Positions 4,179 through 8,488 of a DNA stretch of 41,636 nt are shown here, one piece after another. Every line of letters starts with the position of its first letter. The first letter of the stretch is position 1. A program made the translations under genes and the position numbers. Source of the DNA: Candidatus Geothermarchaeota archaeon (GTDB lineage Archaea > Thermoproteota > Nitrososphaeria > Geothermarchaeales > JDFR-13); NCBI GenBank assembly GCA_015523605.1, contig WAKC01000017.1, forward strand, positions 1-41,636. The letters run 5' to 3'. The notes under the pieces are model-generated. The model made no database searches. It was not told the origin of the DNA and saw nothing but the letters and a program-made list of their open reading frames with translations.

Positions 4179-4574
4179 CTAACTTATATATAACTCCGAG
4201 TCTCGGATAAATAAAGTCTTTAGACCCTTCTCCAAAGCCCTCCTACGCACCTCCCTATCTGCTGTAGCCACAATACCATCCACATCCAAAGCTATTAGAA
4301 TCACATCCTCATCCGCCTTATTAGATCTAGACTGGACCACATCGAAAAAAGCCTGCTCAGTCTCCATAATCATCTTTAGGACGGTTACCTTTGAACCCCT
4401 ACCTCTAGACCTAGAGAGACGCTCCAACTCCCTCATAACAGACTCAGGTACCAAGAGTTTAAAAGGGAGGTATCTATCAATTAGCTGGTCAAAAAGTCGC
4501 TTCTCAACTAGGGCTATTAGAAAGCTTGTATCACATACAAAGATATACTCCTTTCTATACAATCTCTCCAACAC
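4179..4574 (-). CDS. PIN-domain protein (Fcf1/Utp24-like archaeal family)
   Basis: 131 residues. A PIN fold is indicated by FVCDTSFLIALVEK (first Asp), VPESVMRELERLSRS (conserved Glu), NKADEDVILIAL (Asp) and GIVATADREVRRRALEKG (Asp), the four-acid metal site of single-strand-specific RNases. There is no adjacent antitoxin, so this is unlikely to be a VapBC toxin. The gene overlaps the end of aIF2-gamma by 20 bases, a conserved archaeal arrangement in which this Fcf1-like protein is thought to take part in rRNA processing; that role is inferred from family and neighbours. RNase activity is likely but not shown here. Confidence 0.82.
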   Translation of the reverse strand: MLERLYRKEYIFVCDTSFLIALVEKRLFDQLIDRYLPFKLLVPESVMRELERLSRSRGRGSKVTVLKMIMETEQAFFDVVQSRSNKADEDVILIALDVDGIVATADREVRRRALEKGLKTLFIRDSELYIS

Positions 4575-5799
4575 CTATTAGACGCCATTTATTATCATAT
4601 CTAGCTGCTATAGCGGATTTCCAACCCTTATCGGCCACCACCGGCCGGGAGAGTCTAAAGGTTACCCTACCATCTCTAATATCTAAAGCAACGCCTAGAG
4701 TAGTTGCCGGACCAATATTTAATCTAAAGGGCTCTCCCCTCTGTATAGGCCTAACCTCTACAGCCTCATCAGTACCTACAACATATTTGAATAGTTTTAC
4801 CTCCATCGTCACTTCATAAAGGACTTCAGGTAGAGTACCAGGTCTACCCACTACATTACCAACCATTCCATCAGACTTGGTCAATGAAGGATCTAGATCA
4901 GTTTGCACACCTATCAAACCACCTGGGAAAGCCTCTTTAAGAGGAAGTTTACCACTACTTAGCGACAGGACCTCAGCATATAATGGCTGATTAACAATCC
5001 TATCCCTCTCTTTATATATATATCCTGGAGATATCTCGATCTCATCACCTACAGCTATCTTCCCCTCCAAGATGGCTCCTCCAAGGATACCCCCTACTAT
5101 ATCTTCATATTTAGTTCCAGGTTTATTCACATCAAAGGATCGAATAACATACATCATGAGAGGTTTGTTAGGATCCTTCTCAGGCTTGGGTATATATCTG
5201 TAGAGGGCCTCCACTAGATAATGTAGATTAACATTATGTATGGCTGAAACGGGGATTATAGGGGCATCCGCAAAGGAAGTTGTAGATAGAAACTCTCTAA
5301 TAGCCTCATAATTCTCATAAGCCTCTTTCTTAGAGACGAGGTCGATCTTATTCTGGACTACAACCACGTTTTTAACACCTAGAAGCTCCAAAGCCGTAGT
5401 ATGCTCCTTAGTCTGCGGCCTTGGAACCGGCTCATTAGCCGCTATAACAAGCATGGCTCCATCCATAACAGCAGCTCCAGAAAGCATATTAGCCATTAAA
5501 CTCTCATGCCCTGGACAATCCACAAAACTAACTACCCTAACCAATTCACCCTCCATATCCTCTAAACGGGGTCTAGACCAGAATACCTCAGACCCATTCT
5601 TTACAAATCTGTAGATGGGCATATCTGCATATCCAATCTTAATCGTGATCCCTCTTTTCAATTCTTCACTATGGACGGCTGTCCAAACACCCGTCAAAGC
5701 CTGTATAATAGTGGTCTTACCATGGTCAACATGACCTGCAGTACCAATATTTAACTCTGGCTGCCTAGGTATCGAAACCTCTTCATATATCTCCATCAT
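4555..5799 (-). CDS. eif2g: Translation initiation factor aIF2 subunit gamma
   Basis: About 414 residues. The GTPase core of the factor that brings Met-tRNAi to the small subunit. G1 is GHVDHGKTT (22-30), G3 is VDCPGHE, G4 is NKID and G5 is SAIH; two beta-barrel domains follow. Between G2 and G3 (about residues 62-88), where many archaeal and eukaryotic homologues have a four-Cys zinc knuckle, this protein has a segment of similar length with no cysteine. The ATG at 5799 is chosen (AAGGTTG upstream, one base after the S6e stop); an upstream TTG at 5817 would overlap S6e. The gene sits between S6e and a PIN-domain gene, a common archaeal order. Confidence 0.95.
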   Translation of the reverse strand: MMEIYEEVSIPRQPELNIGTAGHVDHGKTTIIQALTGVWTAVHSEELKRGITIKIGYADMPIYRFVKNGSEVFWSRPRLEDMEGELVRVVSFVDCPGHESLMANMLSGAAVMDGAMLVIAANEPVPRPQTKEHTTALELLGVKNVVVVQNKIDLVSKKEAYENYEAIREFLSTTSFADAPIIPVSAIHNVNLHYLVEALYRYIPKPEKDPNKPLMMYVIRSFDVNKPGTKYEDIVGGILGGAILEGKIAVGDEIEISPGYIYKERDRIVNQPLYAEVLSLSSGKLPLKEAFPGGLIGVQTDLDPSLTKSDGMVGNVVGRPGTLPEVLYEVTMEVKLFKYVVGTDEAVEVRPIQRGEPFRLNIGPATTLGVALDIRDGRVTFRLSRPVVADKGWKSAIAARYDNKWRLIGVGEIV

Positions 5800-5800
5800 T

Positions 5801-6166
5801 TCAACCTTCTTCCTCAACTATAACCATATTCACCTGATATATCTCAGGTGTGATAGTATTACCCCTGACCAATATCCTCCTCCTATAACCTTTCTTAGTC
5901 TTGCCCTTAATGGTCCTAAGACCTACACCCTTACCAGTCAAGATATATTTTTTAACACCCCCAGGAACATCAGGCCTCATAGGGAAGCCGGATGTGTCTG
6001 ATCCACCGGTGATCTTAAGTTTTTTATCTGGAAGCCCCACTAGACTACCATCTATAACATCCCCAATCTTCTTACCAATAAGGTTTAGACTATCAGGCTC
6101 ATCCAACTCCTTAGTAAATGCCGTCCCATCCTTTGGATTTGATATGTTAAGCTTAAACTTTACCAT
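5801..6166 (-). CDS. rps6e: 30S ribosomal protein S6e
   Basis: About 121 residues, the short archaeal form lacking the long phosphorylated tail of eukaryotic S6. Family signatures are MVKFKLNISNPKDGTAF at the start, LIGKKIGDVIDGSLVGLPDKKLKITGGSDTSGFPMR in the middle and KGYRRRILVRGNTITPEIYQVN near the end (each visible as continuous matches). The ATG at 6166 follows an AGGTGGTGG ribosome-binding site; a GTG three codons upstream is less likely. The stop is followed after one base by aIF2-gamma. It lies 54 bases after aIF5B. Confidence 0.94.
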   Translation of the reverse strand: MVKFKLNISNPKDGTAFTKELDEPDSLNLIGKKIGDVIDGSLVGLPDKKLKITGGSDTSGFPMRPDVPGGVKKYILTGKGVGLRTIKGKTKKGYRRRILVRGNTITPEIYQVNMVIVEEEG

Positions 6167-6220: not shown

Positions 6221-8488
6221 CTATCCCCTTGCAAAGAGGGGATAGCGTCTCCTCATAATCTCTACAAACTCATCTAGAGCCTCTAAATAGTCGCTCGCCA
6301 TCTCATGTGCAAACTCCTTCAATAAAGTCCTAGCATCATCTTCAGGGATGTAAACATATAGTATATCACCCTCCTTAAAATCTCTCCCAGCCTCAGCCTC
6401 CCTAACACTTATAGCCACCTCCATACCTCTAGTCGCAATACCTACTGGTTTACCCATACTCTGGATCTGATGTATTGAACCGATAACCTTACCATCTCCA
6501 CGCATGAGACGGACACGAGGCCTGATCTCACCAGCCAGAACCCTTACACCGAAGATAGCTGGTTTACTCCTCCTAAAGATATATCCTTCGAGAACCTCTA
6601 CCTTACCTGGTTTAACCAGAGAGGCATATAGACGCTCCCTGGTTGACCTGGTATATTCATCGACCCAACCTAGATACTCCTCGATAATTCTATATAGGAT
6701 GTTTCCGGAGAAGATGGGTATCTTCTTGGATTTCGCGAGCTCCTCAGCATCTGGAAGAATATCTACATTGAAGGCGAGGATGACTCCGCGAAGAATATCC
6801 TTGTCCCTAACCACCTCTGCCTCTACAACATCCTTCTTAGATACATTACCTACATCGGCCTTTCTAATAGGGATACCCTTCTTTGTAAGCTGGGATATTA
6901 TAGCTTCCAAGGTACCTAGGGTATCAGCCTTTACTATAACACCTATCTTATCAGTATCAACCTTAATCCTAGATATCTCCTCTGAAACCTTCTTCATCAA
7001 CTCCTCAATAACTTCTGGGGAATCCTTCGAGACACTATAGAATGGGGACCCTGCATATACCTCTTCAAGGTCTGGTGCAGAAATTATTATACCAGCAGCT
7101 GGATAACTTACATCTATATTTCTAAACTTCTTCCTTGGATCCCTAAGTTCATCGAGTGGTGCAGGCATTAGTATAGAGCGCACCCTAGTCTTGACTACAC
7201 CCTCTCTACCAGCACTTATGAATATATCCCCCACCCTTATCACACCATCAATCTGGATAGCCTTGACGACCGCTCCAAGACCGGGCTCCTCAGAAACTTC
7301 TAAAACCGTTCCATATCCAGGCCTATTTAAATCTACTTCCAACCTATTCATAAGAAAACGTTGGACGAGTCCTATCAAGATCGTGAGTAGCTCCTGGATA
7401 CCTTCACCAGTCTTAGCACTAACCGGGACAATAGCTACAGTCCTCCTGAAATCTTTAATCCTATCGAACCTATCAGCATCAAACTTATATGTATTTAAAG
7501 CTGAAATGATATATGCTATTCTCTCCTCCAACCTAAGAAGGACATCTTGATTCTGATGTCTAACTGACTCGAGAAAGGATAGAGTATCCATCGACCGCCA
7601 ACCATATATCAAATCAAGCTTGTTAGCCGCGACTAAGAATGGAGTCCTCCTAGATAGAAGTATCTGTATACTCTCATGTGTCTGAGGCTGGAATCCCTTA
7701 GTAATATCTACAACTAGTATTGCTATGTCAGATGCTGATCCCCCGCGAACTCTAAGATTGGAGAAGACCTCATGACCAGGGGTATCTATTACAAGCAAAC
7801 CAGGTACTAAAACGTCGAATCCAAACTTTTTTAGTAATGGGCCACATATACTCCGGAGGGTTTCTGGAGGGAAGAGGCTCGCACCTATATGCTGAGTTAT
7901 ACCTCCAGCCTCCCTATGCTGTACCGCCGTCCCCCTAATCTTGTCCAACAGAGATGTATTATGGACAATCACTCCATCAGCAACGAAGTTGTTGAAACCA
8001 GGACTCTTCAAGTCATATAGGTATTTACTTCTGTATCGACGTGTTATAGACGAGACACTTACGAGATTGAATCTCCAGCCCTCCAATACAATAGTTTCGT
8101 CACCATCCAAGCTAAGCACTCTATCATTTGTTTCAAGCATCGCAGCCGGTACATATTCAAAGAGGTTATCCCCACGATATACGAGGAAACGATGTTCGGG
8201 AGAGGATTCGATAGATATATCATTGGAAAATCTTATTAGATATGTCTTATCAACCCGTTCCCTAGCTACACCACCTACTTCATTAAGTTTAAACCTTAGG
8301 CTTCTAATATCGAAGGAGAGAACATGTGAATCTCTGTATCCCCCAATATATGTCTCGTATAGCTCCTTCAAGGTTAGATTAGATCCATCTACTATAGATT
8401 CTCCTCCTATACATTTCCCACTATCAACATGGCCTAGGACGGTTATAATAGGTTGCCTTATAACTTTTTTATCTTCAGGATCCGACAT
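6221..8488 (-). CDS. infB: Translation initiation factor aIF5B (IF-2-like), host of a mini-intein
   Basis: 755 residues as translated; about 603 after intein removal, normal for archaeal aIF5B. It is a GTPase that promotes subunit joining and Met-tRNAi positioning. The P-loop reads GHVDSGK, is interrupted at Lys25 by an in-frame intein, and resumes with TSLLDKIRGTAV. Later motifs are intact: DTPGHEVFSNLR (G3), AANKLDL (G4), the beta-barrel domain II, and the domain III/IV region ending in YLEALDEFVEIMRRRYP. GTP cannot be bound properly until the intein leaves, because Lys and Thr of the GKT motif are in different exteins. The ATG at 8488 has GGGGGTGA just upstream. The gene lies 54 bases before S6e. 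Confidence 0.95.
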   Translation of the reverse strand: MSDPEDKKVIRQPIITVLGHVDSGKCIGGESIVDGSNLTLKELYETYIGGYRDSHVLSFDIRSLRFKLNEVGGVARERVDKTYLIRFSNDISIESSPEHRFLVYRGDNLFEYVPAAMLETNDRVLSLDGDETIVLEGWRFNLVSVSSITRRYRSKYLYDLKSPGFNNFVADGVIVHNTSLLDKIRGTAVQHREAGGITQHIGASLFPPETLRSICGPLLKKFGFDVLVPGLLVIDTPGHEVFSNLRVRGGSASDIAILVVDITKGFQPQTHESIQILLSRRTPFLVAANKLDLIYGWRSMDTLSFLESVRHQNQDVLLRLEERIAYIISALNTYKFDADRFDRIKDFRRTVAIVPVSAKTGEGIQELLTILIGLVQRFLMNRLEVDLNRPGYGTVLEVSEEPGLGAVVKAIQIDGVIRVGDIFISAGREGVVKTRVRSILMPAPLDELRDPRKKFRNIDVSYPAAGIIISAPDLEEVYAGSPFYSVSKDSPEVIEELMKKVSEEISRIKVDTDKIGVIVKADTLGTLEAIISQLTKKGIPIRKADVGNVSKKDVVEAEVVRDKDILRGVILAFNVDILPDAEELAKSKKIPIFSGNILYRIIEEYLGWVDEYTRSTRERLYASLVKPGKVEVLEGYIFRRSKPAIFGVRVLAGEIRPRVRLMRGDGKVIGSIHQIQSMGKPVGIATRGMEVAISVREAEAGRDFKEGDILYVYIPEDDARTLLKEFAHEMASDYLEALDEFVEIMRRRYPLFARG
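7958..8413 (-). other. Mini-intein (152 residues) in the aIF5B P-loop
   Basis: Residues 26-177 of the aIF5B precursor. Block A begins at Cys26 (CIGGESIVDG). Block B is IESSPEHRFLV (the S-x-x-H form of TxxH). Block F is LYDLKSPGFNNFVADGVIVHN, read with a conserved Asp and ending His-Asn; the first C-extein residue is Thr178. These are the residues required for class 1 protein splicing. No LAGLIDADG or HNH endonuclease lies between blocks B and F, so this is a splicing-only mini-intein that cannot home by itself. It splits GK|T of the P-loop, the site where IF-2 inteins occur in other archaea. No base-composition break is apparent. Confidence 0.93.

Follow-up and report, generated by a model that had tools for sequence, protein, structure and literature searches.

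The archaeal initiation factor aIF5B is the archaeal homologue of IF-2, and inteins inserted into the GTP-binding P-loop of this protein have been described before. In Thermococcales and Archaeoglobaceae, they measure 541–555 amino acids, interrupt the motif at GHVDxGK|T, begin with Cys1 and end in HN|T; NCBIfam entry PRK14845.1 covers the intein-bearing form of IF-2. Under the homing-cycle model, an intein devoid of its endonuclease is expected to vanish over time. Two kinds of endonuclease-free mini-intein are among the closest known counterparts of the one described here. That of Pyrococcus horikoshii RadA (PDB 2LQM, 4E2T) is inserted into a P-loop, and its splicing responds to temperature and ssDNA through intein–extein contacts (PMC5790916). 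In fungi, mini-inteins of the essential spliceosome protein PRP8 occur in Cryptococcus and ascomycetes, their divergence tracks the host species, and the endonuclease-less form has been vertically retained in Cryptococcus (PMC1508164). A survey of eukaryotic inteins also includes members in IF2/eIF5B (PMC5784728).

The intein analysed here was found in a window of 41,636 nucleotides (the whole stretch of DNA that was examined) from a Candidatus Geothermarchaeota genome. It shares the insertion point, Cys1, the HN|T end and the splicing fold family with the Thermococcales and Archaeoglobaceae inteins but comprises only 152 amino acids. Like the RadA intein, which is its best match among solved structures in both sequence and fold, it occupies a P-loop and has no endonuclease, although the RadA host is a recombinase and conditional splicing has been demonstrated there. 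It resembles the PRP8 inteins, which lie at an unrelated site, in lacking an endonuclease and in diverging along with its hosts, but the depth of retention differs, being genus-level in Cryptococcus and spanning several genera in Geothermarchaeales. Taken singly, the intein is ordinary, as its site, kind and mini form are known or common. What sets it apart is its fixation across a whole family, and not its length or its missing endonuclease.

We consider it very probable (about 0.93) that the insert is a class 1 cis-splicing mini-intein that lost its endonuclease long ago and has since been inherited with its host gene. This reading is supported by the sequence, the fold, the conserved catalytic residues, the monophyly of the family's inteins, their congruence with the host gene and purifying selection in one pair of genomes.

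The aIF5B gene and its insert

The open reading frame at 6221–8488 (− strand) encodes a 755-residue aIF5B precursor, which scores above the cut-offs of both TIGR00491 (710 bits) and NF003078 (762 bits). The gene lies within a cluster of translation genes, with an S6e-like ORF and aIF2γ, both assigned by sequence, on one flank and NDK, L24e, S28e, L7Ae and GltX on the other. The aIF2γ gene of the window (4555–5817, − strand) carries no intein. A single strong aIF5B match and no second copy were found in this genome, which is 89% complete, so that a second, intein-free copy is conceivable though unlikely.

The N-extein (residues 1–25; 8414–8488, − strand) ends in the first part of the P-loop, GHVDSGK (residues 19–25; 8414–8434). 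The intein follows as residues 26–177 (CIGGES...GVIVHN; 7958–8413, − strand), is free of stop codons and has a calculated mass of 17.38 kDa. The C-extein (residues 178–755; 6221–7957 including the stop codon, − strand) resumes with TSLLDKIRG, whose Thr178–Ser179 (7952–7957) supply the +1 nucleophile and complete the P-loop as GK[T]S. The boundaries of the initial annotation, 152 residues between Lys25 and Thr178, were reproduced exactly by translation. Precise excision of the intein yields GHVDSGK|TSLLDKIRG, which agrees with the uninterrupted GHVDSGKTTLLDKIRG of a genome from the sister family (G011), and the insertion at GK|T identifies the IF-2 P-loop intein allele, identical junctions being present in 48 further distinct aIF5B inteins.

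Profile searches agree with this assignment. PF14890 (Intein_splicing, cut-off 35.8) matches the intein alone with 54.6 bits and the full protein with 49.5, and TIGR01443 scores 16.5 against a cut-off of 15.6, whereas the N-terminal model TIGR01445 scores 21.3, slightly below its cut-off of 24.5. No LAGLIDADG match was detected within the 152 residues, which bears out the earlier description of a mini-intein without a homing endonuclease; the insert is also shorter than the approximately 200 residues that bound this category. An AlphaFold2 model built from an alignment of 34 mini-inteins (pLDDT 96.8, pTM 0.89) gave 67 Foldseek matches in the PDB with E ≤ 0.001, the best of which, with TM scores of up to 0.83, are inteins. 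The inteins matched were those of P. horikoshii RadA, Ssp DnaB, CDC21-1, Mtu RecA, TFIIB and TvoVMA, and the matches with a TM score above 0.7 are all inteins (RadA, Ssp DnaB, Mtu RecA and TvoVMA). By sequence, the RadA mini-intein is the closest solved relative (E = 1.2e-8). The insert is thus modelled as an intein with a HINT fold.

Distribution in Geothermarchaeales and beyond

The family to which this genome belongs (f1, Geothermarchaeales) is represented by 11 genomes, and the aIF5B gene is readable in ten. All ten carry, at the same P-loop point, an insert of 143–170 amino acids with an open frame and no endonuclease; the eleventh genome (G009, 75% complete) gave no aIF5B match. G011, which alone represents the sister family within this order, has an empty site. 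Across the class, a pattern combining the P-loop with a following Cys was found in 20 of 400 genomes, namely the ten of f1, three of f5 and seven of the 34 of f11. No readable genome of this multi-genus family lacks the endonuclease-less intein, whereas its occurrence in related families is patchy, which makes it a clean natural test of retention without drive, setting a site that tolerates exact deletion only against a benefit to the host.

Endonuclease-less forms at the aIF5B P-loop also occur at least in Caldarchaeum, HR01 and Desulfurococcales and in one Methanococci-labelled and two Thermoplasmata-labelled MAGs. The initial annotation had correctly noted that the site is used in other archaea (Thermococcus, Archaeoglobaceae and Desulfurococcales); its further suggestion that a 152-residue form without endonuclease might be new in this lineage holds as a lineage record but not for the form itself, which runs throughout Geothermarchaeales and is also seen in the groups just named. 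A search confined to open-access literature returned no paper on these inteins. As far as checked, the lineage record and the fixation across the family are new, while mini-inteins, the IF-2 P-loop site and the vertical retention of endonuclease-less inteins were already known.

By Pfam, no intein other than that of aIF5B was detected in the four genomes of its own genus, and the remaining members of the family carry additional inteins sporadically. Outside this genus, further Geothermarchaeales inteins at other sites were seen on G007:C34, G008:C8/C36/C71/C107, G005:C6 (several), G006:C1 and G009:C114. The genome under study (G000) also contains four LAGLIDADG matches outside inteins (L108–L111, on C2, C5, C35 and C9). 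L109 and L110 resemble two pieces of related ORFs, and two of the four, L111 among them, open with helix-turn-helix-like repeats. An endonuclease acting in trans was considered and set aside, as all four ORFs lie outside the intein and no tie to the aIF5B site was found.

Catalytic residues and splicing

Conservation was assessed in 34 mini-inteins from aIF5B and aIF2γ that are 14–51% identical to the 152-residue intein. Five residues are invariant in all 34: Cys1, the nucleophile of the first step in block A (8411–8413, − strand), His74 of the block B motif SPEH (residues 71–74; 8192–8203), Asp134 of block F (KYLYDLKSPGFNNFVA, residues 130–145; 7979–8026), and the penultimate His151 and terminal Asn152 of block G (7958–7963). 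They constitute the catalytic set of class 1 inteins, whose signature is found here as C1, SPEH in block B, H151, N152 and T+1; class 3 is ruled out by the presence of Cys1.

The earlier statement that blocks A, B and F are intact applies to Cys1, His74 and Asp134, but not to the usual His of block F, which reads FNNF instead of HNF and has Asn141 at this position. This His is missing throughout the genus and in G007, and many homologues have Gln, Lys, Gly or Asn in its place. The SxxH variant of block B, also pointed out earlier, was confirmed (SPEH in this intein) and is common to the genus's four genomes; it is no novelty, since several other aIF5B and aIF2γ inteins have Ser in place of Thr. 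The two substitutions could slow splicing, but because they are genus-wide and recur elsewhere at these sites, inactivity of the intein is unlikely, and the conserved residues, together with the selection described below, agree with splicing activity.

In the cell, we infer, splicing would begin with an attack of Cys1 on the Lys25–Cys1 bond in an N–S shift assisted by Ser71 and His74 of block B. Thr178 of the P-loop would then accept the N-extein through transesterification, and Asn152, aided by His151 and Asp134, would cyclise to free the 17.4 kDa intein, leaving the joined product GHVDSGKTSLLDK with a P-loop, GHVDSGK–T, that would let aIF5B bind GTP. With Lys25 and Thr178 held apart, the precursor probably cannot bind this nucleotide, and aIF5B, a presumably essential factor, would be inactive before splicing.

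The host might have co-opted this dependence as a switch that keeps aIF5B off until a cue from heat, redox state, nucleotide or ribosome is received. Fixation without drive in ten of ten family genomes, placement in a nucleotide-binding loop and the similarity to P. horikoshii RadA, whose cue-controlled P-loop mini-intein (PMC5790916) is the closest PDB entry by sequence, would fit such conditional splicing. We nevertheless regard it as improbable: catalytic and core residues aside, the intein shows little conservation (27–51% identity between this genome and more distant family members, compared with 60–79% for the extein), no conserved regulatory surface is evident, and other Nitrososphaeria manage without it. 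A redox switch through a disulfide inside the intein is ruled out because Cys1 is its only cysteine; oxidation of Cys1 or metal binding by it is possible, and the redox dependence raised in the initial annotation could act on this residue alone. By analogy with RadA, some benefit of the intein to its host is possible.

That the intein is dead or capable of cleavage only, with active aIF5B coming from another copy or with a dispensable P-loop, is very unlikely. The loss of the block F His and the replacement of the block B Thr by Ser would be in line with decay, but all five catalytic residues are present in 34 of 34 sequences, the frame is open in ten of ten genomes, the G002/G003 pair bears the mark of purifying selection, and this genome yielded no second aIF5B copy.

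Phylogeny and inheritance

In a tree of 63 inteins from aIF5B and aIF2γ, those from aIF5B of the ten Geothermarchaeales genomes group together in a clade that holds no others (support 100/98). The long forms of f5 and f11 (337–523 amino acids) adjoin this clade with weaker support (87/80), and a wider group of 20 (100/98) includes the Geothermarchaeales clade, a 531-residue Micrarchaeota intein and the endonuclease-free aIF5B mini-inteins of Caldarchaeum and HR01 (159–162 amino acids), which occupy the same site but are not sister to the Geothermarchaeales clade. The Thermococcales and Archaeoglobaceae inteins form a clade apart from those of Nitrososphaeria (100/98).

Intein and extein distances within the family are correlated (Mantel r = 0.78, p = 5e-5; r = 0.66, p = 6e-4 once one member of the close pair is dropped), and the well-supported clades of the two trees are concordant, differences being confined to weakly supported nodes. 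In the G002/G003 pair, the only one in which substitutions are not saturated, the intein has dN = 0.10 and dS = 0.65 (dN/dS about 0.16) and the extein dN = 0.01 and a similar dS of 0.56, which shows that the intein of this pair is under purifying selection. The sequences most likely reflect a loss of the endonuclease before the family radiated, followed by vertical descent during which selection maintained splicing. A recent horizontal arrival, for which one might invoke the general spread of inteins by homing and their patchiness in other families of the class (seven of 34 f11 genomes), is highly improbable in view of the exclusive clade, the congruent distances, the matching dS values and the absence of an endonuclease from ten of ten inteins.

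For the inherited mini-intein, we propose the following history and cause of persistence. An ancestor would have gained the intein at the aIF5B P-loop site as an endonuclease-bearing element, the endonuclease would have gone before the f1 radiation, with co-inheritance with the host gene thereafter, and the intein would stay because only a precise deletion spares the P-loop. Possible stages of such a decay are seen nearby. L070 of the f5/f11 group (523 amino acids) has a clear LAGLIDADG domain, whereas in the f5 inteins of 337 and 365 amino acids (L017 and L032) no such domain exceeds the threshold, and these two resemble intermediates in endonuclease decay. Other aIF5B inteins of intermediate size with weak or no LAGLIDADG matches are the L047/L055 group (320–358 amino acids) and L063 (425 amino acids); these intermediates apparently represent decaying endonucleases, with lengths at this one site grading from 570 down to 143 amino acids. 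Endonuclease-less forms (Caldarchaeum, two Desulfurococcales groups, L089, L062 and L069) are dispersed over the tree, which points to repeated loss. Since the Micrarchaeota intein groups with Caldarchaeum/HR01 and the long f5/f11 forms with Geothermarchaeales, the loss in Caldarchaeum/HR01 was probably separate from that in Geothermarchaeales.

Mini-inteins in aIF2γ

The nearby paralogous GTPase aIF2γ has P-loop mini-inteins of its own (GHVDHGK|C...HN|TT), which are a more unusual by-product of this analysis than the aIF5B intein. They were identified in L009, L010, L011, L012, L017, L032, L094–L106 and L112–L130, and no paper on them was found in the open-access literature. They form a single clade (96/94), which rules out that they are ectopic copies of aIF5B inteins of the same genome. 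Six genomes (G004, G005, G008, G010, G030 and G032) have inteins in both initiation GTPases. Together, the aIF5B mini-inteins and some aIF2γ mini-inteins of the same genomes might form a domesticated post-translational gate on initiation in thermophilic members of the Nitrososphaeria class, kept for coupling GTPase activation to a condition, although we think this improbable. The aIF2γ inteins occur in four families of the class and are mostly endonuclease-less (146–166 amino acids), with lengths of 164–166 amino acids in G004, G008 and G010, 158–160 in G030 and G032 and 146–152 in seven f7 genomes; those of G046 (206 amino acids), G005 (257 amino acids) and f11 are longer.
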